Below are positions 50,881-64,000 of a stretch of DNA of 64,000 nt, piece by piece. The stretch spans positions 434,001 to 498,000 of the forward strand of contig PPXM03000011.1 in NCBI GenBank assembly GCA_003707065.3, written 5' to 3'. The notes under the pieces are model-generated. The model had not been told where the DNA came from, did not search any database, and saw nothing but the letters and a program-made list of their open reading frames with translations. A program made the translations under genes and the position numbers. This stretch comes from Trigonopsis variabilis. Lineage: Eukaryota; Ascomycota; Trigonopsidomycetes; Trigonopsidales; Trigonopsidaceae. The number at the start of each line of letters is the position of its first letter. Positions within the stretch are counted from its first letter, which is position 1.

Positions 50881-51593
50881 ATCATTCCGATTACAGACAC
50901 GTCCTTTTGATTGTAACGCTAAATGGTAGGCTGTTACGAATCAGTCGTAACGATTCCACCTGTCCAGCCAGCCTTCAAGGATGGTACTACGATTGGCGAA
51001 GGCTGGCAAGAGAAGTGAATTCGTTGCGACAGATTCGTTAACATCGGCTGGTGCCAGGGAACAATTGCATCTCTCACATATAGAAGACTTTTGAATTAAC
51101 GCGAAAGGCTACTACAGATACATGCTCTTCCTGTACAGGTGACTTCGTCGGAAACGACCTTGAGAGATAAACAGAGGCTTCTCTTTTTCTACTTGAATGT
51201 CTTCTGTTTCTATCAGGGAATGGCATGAACCATTCTCTTTCGAAGTAGACTGTTTCGCAAAGGTGGCTTGAACTTGACTGAAATATTAATCTATGCTTTT
51301 ATCCATACGACGTGCGCCAAGAATGAGGCATTCATTCGCATATCGTCTCCTATTTCCAAATCCGAGACGAGCTTAATTTTACTCAGATCTTGATGCTGTA
51401 ATTTGTTCGTTAGATTCTATTCGGCATACCGTCTTCATCAGTGCAAGTCTTTCTCAGGATGTATAGTGAAAGCTGCAATATGGACTGATGGTTCTACGGA
51501 TGAGATCACAATCAAAAATATACACTCAGGAACTTCTCATTCAATTCTGTTCTAGCTGTCTCATTCTATATTTTTCGACTAAATATCAACGTT
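50881..51593. other. Upstream region of TF (2), containing an LTR relic
   Basis: 713 bp between the regulator and the 3' end of the Dal5-type permease. The left half is occupied by the LTR relic described separately. Confidence 0.4.
50932..51122 (+). mobile_element. Decayed LTR relic, Ty3/Gypsy-like
   Basis: It starts TGTTACGAATCAGTCGTAAC and shares about 57 of its first 68 bases with the solo LTR at 54865. A weaker match near its right end is CTTTTGAATTA. No target duplication is visible, so the right border is approximate and the copy looks older than the other. It also contains a 10-bp inverted repeat (50967-50976 with 50998-51007). Confidence 0.5.
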
Positions 51594-54457: not shown

Positions 54458-55145
54458 ATCGGCAATTTCAAGATGATGGGAACAGGATGACGAGTCCCTT
54501 TATGTAGATCGGGTTGTAGCGATGCTGAGTATTGTTTACGTACCCCATGACGAGCCGCGGTTATCACATGATGATACTTTGTGGCGATCATGACTCGTAG
54601 TATTCTGAGAGCTACCGCTTATCAGAACTCGCTACGTTGGTACACTTCATGATACCAGGAATAATCCTTAGGATAGCAGCTTCGTAAGTATGATATTTGT
54701 GCTGGGCTTAGTATGACTATGCTACCTAAACTTATAAAAAAGCATTACTTAGATCGTCGTGCTTTTAAACTGCTCATTTTCTGCTTGTTTCTTGTATTAC
54801 TTTAAAGCAATAGGATTTACAGATAGTCCAGAATAAAATAGCGACTTTTCTTGTTTCCATCGCGTGTTACGAATCAGTCGTAACGGTTCCAGCTGACGGG
54901 CCAACTGTCAAGGATGGCACTACGATTGGAGATCAGGTCATTCTTTAGAGATCAGACCATTAATTGGATCACTAATCATTAATCAGGCCACTTTGAATAT
55001 GAGCTGATCCATTATCGTGTCTGTATAAGCGAGTATACTTAGACTAGAAAGATAACTTTCTTTTGAATTACATCCGCTGGTAGCAACCGCCGTAGAGATT
55101 GTTACATCGCGACGGACAACGCTACCAGTGGCGATTTTATCTAGA
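54458..55145. other. Divergent upstream region of SDR and ACR3
   Basis: 688 bp. The right third is the solo LTR described separately. The rest shows nothing I can name. Confidence 0.4.
54865..55106 (+). mobile_element. Solo LTR, Ty3/Gypsy-like, with target duplication
   Basis: 242 bp, beginning TGTTACGAATC and ending GATTGTTACA, so it has TG..CA ends with inverted TGTTAC/GTTACA-like termini. It is flanked by a perfect 5-bp direct repeat TCGCG (54860-54864 and 55107-55111), the target duplication left by integrase. No internal region is present, so it is a solo LTR made by recombination. TATA-like GTATAAGC starts at 55022. The intact borders suggest moderate to young age. The family assignment rests on the TGTTACG start and 5-bp duplication only. 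Confidence 0.75.
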
Positions 55146-58566: not shown

Positions 58567-58718
58567 AAATAGTTTATTAATGTGTCATTAGATAAAATAT
58601 GATTATTTATCTACAATAAAAATAAGTTATAGTAAAGTGATATAGAAGGTTATCATTTGTCTGATGCTAATTTCTTATTGCTCCATAAGTCAATATTGAC
58701 GCCTAGAAAGAATGTGCC

Positions 58719-59219
58719 ATGAGTTCTAACTTGCAAAACTCAGCCCACGTAGCCCGTCGTTCGTTTCTTACGCATTCCGGGGCCCGTCTTGGTATTGCGG
58801 CTTTCGGATCTACGGTGGGTGGAATGCTCTCAACTTTTAAAGCCACGGCTGCACCAGTTACCAGAAGTAGTATTGCGAGATTCTGGCCGAACGGCGCGAG
58901 ACTTGTGATATCACTTTCCATGCAGTTTGAGGGGGGCGGAACCGTAACGGTGCACGGACCCATCCACCTAGGCGCCCCCGCCCCAGAGACATACGTCACA
59001 ATAGGGATATCACTGAAATGTATCAGTAAAATGTTGCGGATTCTTCTCATCTTCATCCGTCCAAAGGTAACCCACGCTTACATAGCCGAACCTTATTGCA
59101 AACATGGATCAAGTCTCTCTTTTACAGTTAGTTATTCACGGCTGTCATCAGCTTGTATCACAGCAACAATGCAAACTAGAAAGGCACGCGGCGTCGAAAA
59201 TGCTAATAGTGTTGACTAA
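58719..59219 (+). pseudogene. Fragment of bacterial-type polysaccharide deacetylase with Tat-like signal
   Basis: The frame starts at ATG 58719. Residues 13-17 read RRSFL, followed by a moderately hydrophobic stretch and ATAAPV, which looks like a bacterial twin-arginine export signal. Next comes RFWPNGARLVISLSMQFEGGG, the opening strand of PuuE/NodB-like polysaccharide deacetylases. After about residue 75 the frame no longer resembles the family and the catalytic HxxxH block is absent, so I regard it as a fragment. Tat signals have no role in fungal secretion. This suggests bacterial ancestry, but the identification rests on short motifs. Confidence 0.45.
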
Positions 59220-59836
59220 TGTATACTAATGGCAAGGGGCCAACACGCGATAGTCAAGGCTGACTAGCTTTTATTGAGATAAGGCAAACAGGACAGTAGT
59301 CTATGTACGGTATCAAGACACTTTCCAAAGTGTCTACGCTGAGGATACTGACATAAGCAATCTGTCCTGTATTTCATGTTAGTTAGTGAATATATAGGGA
59401 CTCTTGACACACATGTCGAGTGCAAGGTCTCCGAGAAGAGAGCGAATAGGAAAGAGTAGTGTATGCTAAAAGGCAGTCTAATAAGCAAATAAGCAAATGA
59501 ATATTGCATTTAATCTTTTATAGGGCCACTAATGGATGCATCCATCCTACATCTCAACAGCTTTGGTCTTAAACGATAACGGCTGAAACAGATTGAAACA
59601 GTGTATGATACGATGGCATGTGACAGCCTAAGGAAGTAAAGCCAGGAACAAGGCAAAGACTCTGAGAATAAAGACAAATGAGACATTCACCGTCATTGTG
59701 TAGCAAATCTTGGAGACCGGTCATGGCAGCATCAGAAGTGGTTCTTTATGTTCTGATGCAGGTCATAGTGGCATCAATATCGTACGAAAGATGAATATAA
59801 AGCCGCCTGCTTTAGCCTGGTCCAAGCATATTCAAA
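59220..59836. other. Intergenic region before the nuclease-kinase gene
   Basis: It contains two related 20-bp segments starting GGTCAT (59720 and 59761) in the presumed promoter. A stretch 59378-59558 has LTR-like ends, but no target duplication was found. Confidence 0.35.
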
Positions 59837-61790
59837 ATGCAATCTTTCCAAGAACCATCTAAAGAAGATTCCAGGACGCAGTCCATGAAAGTCAAAGCCG
59901 GGGCTGACCTGAAAATATTGACCGATGAGTTTGCATCAGGCGAAGCCAAAAATGCCTCAATATCACGGCAAAAAGGGGCCCACGATAATTCCGTCAGAAT
60001 GGCTGCTGGTCAAAACAGCACAAACGCCGCCTCTCTTGCATTTTGGCAGACCGTTATCCTTACAAGATCCACTGTCCAAATGCTGATGGTGGGGCGCGGA
60101 TATATTATTGATGAATCACTGTGGGCCTTTCTCCTAAAAGAACTTGGTCCTGATCGCATCAACAGCATCCTTTCTGTTGATCAGGATGCTATCAAGCAGG
60201 AACTTGCGCCCCAAAAAACGCTTCCAGAGAAACCGCCTGAGAAAACGGTACGCGAGTATCTGCAACAGATTTGGACGTCTGCATCCAACGCCAGTCCCCG
60301 CAATCCAGATATTCAGATGGTATCCAGTACGGTAGTATCAATTAACCACGGTCGTCGAGAAGTTGACTTTGGCGTCAAGATCGCGAAGGAGAATGGCAAA
60401 GATGCTACTAAACACCCTCTGTCGGATCTTGTACTCATCCTTGAGTTCAAACAAAACGAAAAAGCAGAGGTTGCTGAGATCGCTCTGGAGCAGGTGGTCG
60501 AGTTAGCCATGCAAGTCCTTGACCATGATCTCTCCCGTTTTTTCGTCTTAGCGGGCCGAATCAATGGCTGGAAGATGATACCTCTTATGGTGGACAGAAC
60601 CGGAATTTTCAACTTCTCTGAGGTTGATATAGCAAGCAACCCCTTTGATTTGTGGCGTATTTTTAGGTCAATACAATTGTCAACACTAGAGAATCTAGGC
60701 GTGATGAAGAAGTGGTCGTTTCGTCCTCCTCAGATGGTGGGTGCGGTGTGGGTGATGGATGCAAAGTTAGTCTGCCAAAGAGCTCTCGAATTCCAACTGA
60801 GTAGGACTGTATTCCAAGGATCGGACGCTTCTGGGCGAACCGTTTTCATAAAGGACCACTGGGTCCGAATTGACAGACCCTCCGAAGGTGAAATCTTACG
60901 GGCCATACAGACTCATCAGCCGTCTACCTATCTTCCTAGGCTTCTGACCATCGTTAGACAAAAACAAACCACGACGCTAGCAAATCTTCGCGGTTCGCTC
61001 GTAAAGAAACCTACAGTCCACGCTGGTGCATTGTATAACTTTGGCGCCCTTGACTTACCACCCATACTCCAACGGGAGCGCATTGTCACAGTTTGGGCGG
61101 GAGACCCTCTCCTCATGGCAGTATCTAATGTCCGAGACATGGTGACTGCTTTAAGAGACAGCATCATTGGTAAGAAATCGATATTACTCTCTTGTCTAAC
61201 ATACAGGTCACCTTCATCTTTTTAAATTTGGTGTCTTACATCGAGATGTGAGTTTAGCGAATATTGTGTTCGATCCTCAGTTGAAAAGAGGGAGCTTGAT
61301 TGATCTTGGGAATGCGGTCTTTTATAACACCGCTCGGATGGGAGGTACTATTCTTGGAACGAGACTATTTATGTCATGTGAGGTCCTTTCAAAGGAAACC
61401 TACTCCGTTCTAAGTGAGCTTGAATCCTTTTTTTTTGTGCTAGTCTGGCTGGTCTATGGTCATGATTTTCACGATGGGAAATTGAAAGAGCTCAAGGATG
61501 ACGATGAGGGCCATAATTGGGCTTTTGAAAAGCTCTCCGACAAAAAGCACGAAATAAAATACGTCCTAATCCAGCGCCTTATGTCTTCTCCCCCTGAGGG
61601 AATTATTGATCAAGCAAAGCCCCTACGGCCATCTTTTGTGGGACTTCAATGTGTGATTAACAAATGGGCTGATCTTCTCATCAAGTATTCTATACCTAGA
61701 AATATGCTGAACTGCTCTAATGAGCAGCTCTATGAAATGGTTCTTGGCTTGCTCGATGATTTCTTGAACTCTTCGGACGCCGAAGAGTAA
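59837..61790 (+). CDS. PD-(D/E)XK nuclease-like plus FunK1-type kinase fusion protein
   Basis: 638 aa. Exons 59837-61169 and 61207-61790. The 37-nt intron (branch CTAAC) restores GHLHLFKFGVLHRDVSLANIV. The N-terminal half (about residues 130-270) has the pattern of restriction-like nucleases: VDFGV (Asp about 175) and LILEFKQ (ExK about 203), then VVELAMQVLDHDLSRFFVLAG. The C-terminal half is a FunK1 fungal protein kinase: VFIKDHW (beta-3 Lys, about 336), EGEILRAI, the catalytic loop HRDVSLAN (about 456) and LIDLGNA in place of DFG. Such nuclease-kinase fusions resemble Crinkler-like effector or conflict proteins. All core kinase residues seem present and the gene looks whole. Substrates are unknown. 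Confidence 0.8.
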
Positions 61791-62661
61791 AATGGGAAGA
61801 CCGTGTACCATATGAATACATTGATATCTCGATCGCGTGTACTAGTGTTGTTTGATGGACTAGCACAGTTACAAACTGCTTCGCTACCCGGATGATTTTC
61901 TATCCGAAAGGAAAAATGAACAAGAAAGCAACAATTAGCACATTCAGATGGACGCTGCCAGAGAGCTGGAAAACTTGTATTGTACGAATAACTGAAGCTA
62001 TATAGTTGAAATTTTATTGCACAACTAGCTCCTTGAATATTGCCTCTTTTTAATAATAGCAGACCTTGGATCTGAATGATACAAAGCTACTCGGGAGCAA
62101 GACCTCCATCGTGAACCCAAATAATTCTGACTCATGATTTCTCTCTATATGTTATGCCAGAAGCTATTCGAGAACGTGCTTCAAACTGCCTGAACATTCA
62201 TAGAATATTGAAAGAGTTTTTTTCCCCGCCAAAAACATATTATGTGCACAACTTCCAAAGATTACAGCCTTATTGCATTAATTTGTGCTTTTCGACAAGA
62301 CGTTCAAATGTCTCACGAAGCGATTGACTAAGGACTCGCTTAGGTATGTACATATATGACACTTCTTAGACTATGCCGGATTGATATTTTTATGTTACGT
62401 ATTGGCCTCAGAAAACGATACATAGCGTATTCAACGAGGGAAGTACATCTGTAGGCAATAGGAGCGCATTCATAGAATATTTGAAGTAGTTTATCCTTTC
62501 GAACTGGTTTTTTTGAAATGTGAATTCTTAGCTGAGTTTCAGGAACTACGACTGAGTATCGACAGGAGCTCGTTAAGTCAGACTGTCTGCGGTCATGGCG
62601 AAGTTGCTCAAGTTACTCAACGATATACAAAAGAAATGAGGCGAGTACCTTAGAAAAAAGG
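61791..62661. other. Intergenic region between nuclease-family copies
   Basis: 871 bp of AT-rich DNA without a recognisable gene. Confidence 0.35.
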
Positions 62662-63408
62662 ATGTTTCAGATCAGCTCAGCGTCTGAGCCCTACACCGAC
62701 CTCAACGAGCTCCAGTCGGTAATTGACTGTCGACTGGATGCAACTAGCAAGGTAAAAGCCGCAGACAAAGGTGCCCGCGAGGAACTCCTCTTCACAAACA
62801 GGAGAGAGGTCCTTAAAAGATGGTCAATCGGCCAAAAAGTCAAGGAGGTTCGCCTGTATATGAGAGAGTACCTGAGTGAGCATCGGTATGCTTTCGAGTG
62901 TTCATTTTCAGAGTTTCTTCAAGTAGGTCCTTTTGTGGCCAAAGCTGGGCCGAGGAAATACGAAAGATCCAACGACTTTTGCGGTTGGTCGTTGGACTTG
63001 GAAAACGATAGTCCGAGTGAAGCCCAAATGACGGGATACTTGAAGAACTGCTGGAATCATCTTTCAGGTCTGTCTGGGACTAACTATAATCTGAAAGATG
63101 ATTTGACGCTCACAGATGCCTACGGGAAAAGGCAGCTTGATCTTTGCATTGCGTTGGGAGAGGGGGAAAGTTGGGAAAACACAGTATTTGTCTGTGAACT
63201 TAAGCAAGGAGAGGTATCCGAAAAAGCCCTGCAGCAAGCAGCAGATGTGGGGATTCAGATCCTTAACTGTGATCTCTCTCGGAGGTTTCTCTTCCTATCT
63301 GTCGTGACAGGCTGTACGATGAGGCCATATTTGCTAGATAGGGCGGGAGTCTTTTTCTTCCTTATATTCAACGTCACTGATAAAGAGGAATTATCCAAGT
63401 TCTTTTAG
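62662..63408 (+). CDS. Nuclease-half-only relative of the nuclease-kinase gene
   Basis: 248 aa frame with ATG 62662. It aligns in design with the first half of the fusion gene at 59837: a helical N terminus with WSLDLENDSPSEAQMTGYLKNCWNHL, then the nuclease pattern RQLDLCIALG (Asp about 159) and VFVCELKQ (ExK about 178), then LQQAADVGIQILNCDLSRRFLFLSVVTG and RPYLLDRAGVFFF. No kinase half follows, so it is a partial copy, either a relic or a shortened protein. The downstream arm up to about 63530 also matches the inverted copy. Confidence 0.6.
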   Translation: MFQISSASEPYTDLNELQSVIDCRLDATSKVKAADKGAREELLFTNRREVLKRWSIGQKVKEVRLYMREYLSEHRYAFECSFSEFLQVGPFVAKAGPRKYERSNDFCGWSLDLENDSPSEAQMTGYLKNCWNHLSGLSGTNYNLKDDLTLTDAYGKRQLDLCIALGEGESWENTVFVCELKQGEVSEKALQQAADVGIQILNCDLSRRFLFLSVVTGCTMRPYLLDRAGVFFFLIFNVTDKEELSKFF

Positions 63409-64000
63409 GCCCTACAAACGGCAACGCCTCTCAGCTTGTGCATCCAGTCGGCGAGCTGCACTTGGAAGACCAACGACATGAGCCACGTGGCCCAGTTGAA
63501 GGTTGTCGAGAGGCCGTTTGGCAGGGTCAATAGATCGTCCAGGTGAACAGGAATTTTATCAATTTCTGGAGGAGCATATTTACTGTTCCAAATTTCTTAC
63601 ACCTTTTTGCAGATAGCGTCCGCGTCCGCAAAAGGCCGCTCTGCCAAAGGCGGCTTGGCGCCTTTAACTCGCTAACGCAGCTCATGTCGTTGATCTGCAA
63701 TACCCAGAAAACCAGGATAACTCCTCCTTATCTGTGAAATTGAATGTTGGAAAGGAGAAGATTCCTGCGCCATCTAGCAGATACGGTCTCATCGTACAGC
63801 CTGTCACGACAGATAGAAAGACAGAACCCCTAGAGAGATCTCGATTGAGAACTTGGACACCCAGCTCAGTCGCCTACTCGAGCGCTGTTTTAAATATCTC
63901 GCATTTTTTGAGCTCAAAAACAACACTAGGTTTTCCCAGGTTTGCTTTCTCCCAACGTGATAAAAAGGTCGACCCGCCTTTTTCCGTAGGCATCCGAAAG
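63108..64000. repeat. Large imperfect inverted repeat
   Basis: The arms 63108-63530 (+) and about 63636-64000 (-) are diverged copies of the same nuclease-gene segment, with a spacer of roughly 100 bp. The left arm has extra sequence near 63409-63455 that the right arm lacks. Confidence 0.65.
63636..64000 (-). pseudogene. Broken inverted copy of the nuclease-family gene (continues past window)
   Basis: Read on the reverse strand, the end of the window repeats the nuclease core of the 62662 gene. Shared blocks are ATGCCTACGG, TTGGGAGA, GAGCTCAA/GAACTTAA, GTCGTGACAGGCTGTACGATGAG and the YLLD-encoding stretch. The copy is clearly diverged and broken in more than one place, so it is treated as a fossil. 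Its 5' part lies outside the window. Confidence 0.65.

Follow-up and report, generated by a model that had tools for sequence, protein, structure and literature searches.

Nuclease-like FunK1 kinase genes of Trigonopsis variabilis as candidate SPOK-type poison-antidote elements

What is a gene that joins a nuclease-like domain to a protein kinase doing near a contig end, next to two damaged relatives? The gene in question, g01, lies in a 64,000-nucleotide stretch of the Trigonopsis variabilis genome (C11:434001-498000, where C11 is contig PPXM03000011.1; hereafter the window), in an assembly of 11,351,025 bases and 15 contigs. It is an open two-exon gene of 638 amino acids (window 59837-61790, + strand), and the damaged copies g13 and g19 stand downstream of it. 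Judging from the analysis of g01 and its relatives in this genome, we propose with a probability of roughly 0.4 that g01 is a single-gene poison and antidote of the SPOK type. The features on which the argument draws are collected in Table 1.

The gene and its family

An earlier note on this DNA had described a 638-residue fusion with a D...ExK core and the kinase motif HRDVSLAN. The coordinates, the splice model and the FunK1 profile of Pfam, PF17667, all agree with that description: the profile is matched in exon 1 (62.7 bits) and in the exon-2 frame (68 bits) against a cut-off of 24.1, and PF00069 is also matched in exon 2. The intron falls immediately upstream of the kinase catalytic loop. 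The motif residues are D177, E203, K205 and Q219 in the N-terminal half, and K339, HRD 456-458 and D477 (in DLG) in the kinase half. HRDVSLAN, starting at residue 456, carries the serine of HRDxSxxN where a lysine is usual, and this serine has been described as a mark of FunK1 (PMC3203195). The PF17667 alignment on g01 starts at residue 177, which is profile position 3; therefore the D...ExK region is part of the FunK1 Pfam model. The pairing of a nuclease-like domain with a FunK1 kinase, supported by motif layout and PF17667, seems to be the norm of the family and not a peculiarity of g01, which is a new member of the known FunK1 family in an unusual setting.

As for the restriction-like core, two low-confidence structure models give it weak support and do not refute it: their order of helices and strands is that of PD-(D/E)XK nucleases, and in the model of residues 105-300, D177 and E203/K205 fall on neighbouring strands (E70-81 and E93-101). 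These models are suggestive, not conclusive, of a PD-(D/E)XK-type fold in the N-terminal half.

Table 1. Features of g01 and its neighbouring copies, in window positions.
Feature	Positions	Strand	Basis
g01 exon 1: N-terminal region, PD-(D/E)XK-like domain, kinase N-lobe	59837..61169	+	open frame, splice model, PF17667
g01/g02 (C15) identical stretch, 420 bp	60160..60579	+	pairwise comparison
g01 nuclease-like domain, about residues 140-285	60254..60691	+	motif, low-confidence model
g01 D...ExK motif, D177 to K205	60365..60451	+	motif positions
g01 intron, 37 nt, phase 1, family-wide site	61170..61206	+	splice model
g01 exon 2: kinase C-lobe, HRDVSLAN and DLG, up to stop	61207..61790	+	PF17667 and PF00069
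g01 HRD, residues 456-458	61239..61247	+	translated sequence, motif positions
g13 (copy 2): nuclease half, D...ELK kept, ended by a stop	62662..63408	+	open frame, PF17667
g13 degenerate continuation toward the kinase, other frame, kinase-linker-like	63409..63543	+	similarity by eye
g19 (copy 3): broken inverted nuclease half, running on past the window to about C11:498234	63685..64000	-	inverted repeat

The relatives of g01 were counted from genome matches to its exon 1 (25 rows, E 0 to 6.4e-4) and from a PF17667 search (50 rows), which together give 28 loci. Given these E-values and this number, the family is not a product of chance; PF17667 is matched in all 10 members scanned. The loci are spread over C2 (2), C4 (1), C5 (2), C6 (1), C7 (1), C9 (2), C11 (10), C12 (2), C13 (1), C14 (2) and C15 (4). 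Nine of the 50 PF17667 rows, which match at the kinase end only and look like ordinary kinases, were dropped before the count (C6:362310, C4:461255, C1:180741, C2:801140, C2:1031114, C9:220733, C2:570090, C3:522994 and C5:187869), and small remnants at C11:498.4, 504.4 and 506.1 kb, the last two seen by eye, stand outside it.

Both halves are open in 11 of the 28 loci (g01, g02, g04, g05, g10, g14, g15, g16, g17, g18 and g20), with the reservation that the start codons of most open genes are not established; g02 has lost its first codons through a 366-bp inversion relative to g03. Two further open frames miss parts (g03 residues 110-381, g25 the nuclease part), and the remaining loci are broken, fragmentary or cut at contig ends. 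Among 18 loci run through the splice script, 16 have a phase-1 intron of 34-38 nt at the common site among their candidates, ranked second in g18 and g25; it is missing from g09 and g26, which are both disrupted. Kept introns and shared flanks suggest that the copies arose by duplication at the DNA level and not by retroposition. The birth-and-death family proposed by the earlier note is borne out, and a single-copy, conserved housekeeping kinase is not what a genome with 28 related loci presents.

Likeness to SPOK and a proposed mechanism

SPOK proteins, the spore killers of Podospora with relatives in Fusarium, combine an N-terminal region, a PD-(D/E)XK-like domain that has a lysine of catalytic type and a kinase that has an aspartate of catalytic type, and their genes are multi-copy. 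The family described here shows the same order, a nuclease-like part first and a kinase second within a single protein, the former judged by motif and by a weak model, with the layouts set side by side from published descriptions. The spacing from D to K differs, being 28 residues in g01 and about 21 in SPOK3 (219-240). SPOK altered at the nuclease lysine K240 no longer kills, and a change of the kinase aspartate D667 or removal of the kinase gives a toxicity that wild-type SPOK suppresses (PMC6660238, PMC12693581); killing proceeds via DNA damage (PMC9972908).

By analogy, the PD-(D/E)XK-like domain of g01 would damage nuclear DNA if left unchecked, and the FunK1 kinase of the same chain would restrain it, both in cis and in trans, by phosphorylating either its own protein or that protein's target. 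Cells or spores carrying the gene would be protected and non-carriers harmed by carried-over protein, and copies would thereby spread selfishly, multiply and later decay. Genes with a dead nuclease and a live kinase (g15, g16, g18 and g17) would then be resistance-only copies, and those with both motifs broken (g04, g05 and g10) would be relics or have taken on new roles. The turnover of the family and its position at contig ends fit a selfish family. Of the roles offered by the earlier note (nuclear conflict, incompatibility or host interaction), we keep nuclear conflict as an inference; the SPOK toxin and antidote is a better precedent for the family than a host-directed effector.

Motif states, turnover and placement

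The states of the catalytic motifs were read by eye across the family. The nuclease D and (D/E)xK are both kept in the open genes g01, g02, g14 and g20 and in the broken loci g07, g13, g19 and g21. The D is kept beside a broken (D/E)xK in the open genes g04 (DLQ), g05 (KVK) and g10 (KLE) and in the broken loci g09 (KLK), g24 (DLN) and g06 (ELE). It is lost in g15, g16 and g18 (in g18 together with the lysine) and in the broken g22 and g26, and the nuclease motif of g17 is unreadable. On the kinase side, HRD is kept in g01, g02, g03, g14, g15, g16, g17, g18 and g20, and in the broken or partial loci g06, g22, g23, g24, g26 and g27. It is altered in g04, g05, g10 (HRG) and g25 (HRN), in the broken g07, g09 (HRG) and g12 (HRN), and in a remnant beside g13 (HRS). 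The DFG aspartate has become Asn in g20, g10, g25 and g12, and Gly in g27. All four open genes that keep the nuclease motif (g01, g02, g14 and g20) also keep HRD, and no open gene without the HRD aspartate (g04, g05, g10 and g25) has a full nuclease motif.

Most open genes retain HRD, among them g15, g16, g17 and g18, in which the nuclease motif is lost, and this favours a different account, in which these are ordinary intracellular signalling kinases whose old nuclease-like domain is kept for binding or regulation and whose duplication is niche adaptation. The ratio of nonsynonymous to synonymous substitution rates (dN/dS) is 0.41 for g15-g16 and 0.23-0.33 in four of five more distant pairs, the fifth being saturated, which speaks for purifying selection; developmental or stress roles have also been proposed for FunK1 (PMC6001611, PMC3591445, PMC3203195). 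Signalling accounts poorly, however, for the heavy decay, for the open frames that have lost the kinase motif (g04, g05, g10 and g25), and for a nuclease motif that four open genes retain and that lies within the stretch on which g01 and g02 do not differ. We consider signalling possible though doubtful, and rank it second after a SPOK-type toxin and antidote.

That stretch is an identical run of 420 bp spanning the nuclease motif, in a pair with 92 differences over 1824 aligned coding sites and 82-97.5% identity in windows outside the run. Such a run was reached in 0 of 20000 shuffles of single sites, 5 of 20000 of 30-nt blocks and 72 of 20000 of 60-nt blocks. Its simplest explanation, and a probable one, is recent gene conversion. 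A comparable identity of the killing domain has been reported between the Spok3 of one strain and Spok4 (PMC6660238). The overall dN/dS of g01-g02 is 0.88; we do not claim positive selection for the two parts of the pair with values of 1.48 and 1.57, each value depending on about five synonymous changes.

When loci less than 10 kb apart are joined, 10 of the 19 resulting clusters fall in the outermost 15 kb of a contig, a zone that holds 4% of the assembled bases (binomial P=6e-10 if placement were uniform). The state of the copies invites another view, namely that a once-useful family is decaying without function and that g01 is one of the copies still unbroken: 17 of 28 loci are without both halves open, and fragments crowd the final 14 kb of C11. 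Yet g01 and g14 retain frame, intron and both motifs, and dN/dS in the distant pairs is well under 1, even if it is not in g01-g02. A family made up mostly of relics is therefore unlikely in our estimation.

Several results weigh against the SPOK-type proposal itself. The cysteine cluster that precedes the SPOK kinase (C-x3-C-x13-C-x5-H-x7-H) is present in 0 of 12 models. The fold of the nuclease-like domain is weakly supported: the predicted local distance difference test score (pLDDT) is 51 in both models of the region, the best Foldseek matches are chiefly to TDP2 with none at E<=0.001, and hhalign against Mrr and HsdR, the two families tried, gave Prob 0.1 and nothing above shuffled controls, with at least 8 of 40 column shuffles of the profile outscoring the real one against Mrr. 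In an IQ-TREE tree of 16 rows, the HRD-less g04, g05, g10 and g25 form one side of a branch (support 95/94); nuclease-bearing genes are scattered over the tree, g17 is a long branch, and nuclease loss with HRD kept lies elsewhere (g15/g16/g18 and g17). On this tree the open genes lost HRD a single time, so the apparent coupling of the two motifs amounts to one observation. Moreover, g20 has the nuclease motif and HRD together with Asn at the DFG aspartate and may pair a working nuclease with a weak kinase in an open frame, and two broken loci, g07 (HRG) and g13 (HRS in the remnant assigned to it), keep the nuclease motif beside an altered HRD. Finally, three contigs start or stop inside family genes and neither end of C11 has a telomere repeat, so that the bias toward contig ends may in part reflect assembly breakage.

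Other readings, neighbouring copies and FunK1 biology

Nuclease-plus-kinase proteins have other precedents. For restriction-enzyme-plus-kinase proteins in general, an intracellular role in defence or genome conflict has been proposed (PMC5289972), here as a nuclease that would act on incoming DNA or on transposons and be switched by the kinase. We saw no element-directed feature near the genes, and Pfam revealed no targeting domain in the 10 members scanned; we hold this role to be improbable, marginally more so than decay without function. The pairing is likewise shared with Crinklers (CRN/CR, for example CRN8; PMC5289972), and the earlier note had placed such architectures in a Crinkler-like group of effector or genome-conflict proteins. 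In the narrow sense of a Crinkler effector this assignment is not supported. None of 10 members scanned has a Crinkler header matched by Pfam at E<=1, a search that headers without a Pfam model could escape, and no N-terminal Pfam domain besides PF17667 rose above chance in the same number of members scanned. A crude hydropathy measure, taken with uncertain start codons, shows no hydrophobic, signal-like N-terminal stretch in any of 12 models, the highest 12-residue mean being 1.27 (g04). We consider a host-directed, Crinkler-type effector very unlikely.

The damaged copies beside g01 can be described more fully than before. Copy 2 had been taken as a nuclease half only, and its open frame (62536-63405, first ATG at 62662; PF17667 E=1e-5) does stop at 63405; but kinase-linker-like letters follow, and just past the window end, at C11:498412-498639, there is a kinase remnant with HRS (PF17667 E=0.086, weak) that would belong to g13. 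That the third copy is broken and inverted against the second is confirmed by an inverted repeat (63188-63401 / 63710-63923) of 72% identity over 214 nt. The two look like a single wrecked locus, in which the nuclease half was duplicated in inverted orientation and the gene torn apart.

Some further observations concern the surroundings of family members. The contig end at C11:493.8-507.2 kb is packed with FunK1 genes and fragments, together with an aminotransferase-like frame (C11:499694-500398, by eye). At C11:114-128 kb (L010, L014-L016, L018-L020) lie four family genes, one of them inverted and three with blocks of about 91-93% identity. L011 (C2:222 kb) and L028 (C4:715 kb) share a block that was duplicated together with its flanks and is about 88% identical; its C2 copy, g14, is open and its C4 copy, g24, broken. 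In the 5' flank of g01, a 287-bp insertion (window 59272-59558) with a 6-bp target duplication has seven genome matches including itself and empty sites beside g02 and g03, and is perhaps a short non-autonomous element or a solo long terminal repeat. A 170-aa frame at window 58707-59219, with a Tat-like RRSFL start and a bacterial look, has no Pfam match at E<=1. Farther upstream, a direct repeat of 68 bp (window 50932-50999 and 54865-54932, 85% identity, 3.9 kb between copies) brackets frames that resemble regulators, transporters and dehydrogenases.

FunK1 kinases are reported to expand lineage by lineage, with function unknown (PMC3203195, PMC6001611, PMC3591445, PMC5852033); in Paracoccidioides, non-syntenic regions hold more of them than expected, and secretion is predicted for none (PMC3203195). 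The genes studied here share with them the PF17667 match, the HRDxSxxN serine and the lineage-specific expansion. They differ in their host, a compact, intron-poor, yeast-like genome, whereas the papers cited here confine FunK1 to multicellular or complex fungi (PMC3203195, PMC6001611). The genome is likely that of a budding yeast from an early branch: the window has 18 single-exon frames of at least 330 aa, and the genome eight rows for cytochrome P450. Its Rpb2 piece scores 770.6, 757.8 and 751.7 bits against chains of Komagataella, S. cerevisiae and S. pombe, and its complex I 49-kDa piece 551 bits against Yarrowia entries and 540 bits against the two fungi that follow. HET-domain matches were missing from the genome, but no control genome gave one either, and the absence is given no weight here. 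Among the papers searched none contains both FunK1 and Spok, and of those listed with the terms FunK1 or PF17667 none, judging by titles, is on budding yeast; "nuclease" at the start of a word is absent from PMC3203195 and PMC5852033. FunK1 proteins may already be listed by Zhang et al. (2016) on restriction-enzyme-plus-kinase proteins, a work relayed in PMC5289972 and PMC12693581.

A bolder generalization, which we think rather unlikely, is that all FunK1 kinases are SPOK-like selfish toxin and antidote genes, held in this genome in every stage: killers (g01, g14), resistance-only copies (g15, g16, g18, g17), relics (g04, g05, g10) and wreckage (g13/g19). If so, killing by the FunK1 family would be testable in a simple fungus. 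The 28 FunK1 loci in a compact, probably yeast genome call into question the idea that the family belongs to multicellularity, and offer a simpler system in which to study it. Should the nuclease half kill and the kinase half protect, genes that are at present classed as signalling kinases would need to be reinterpreted as selfish or conflict genes.

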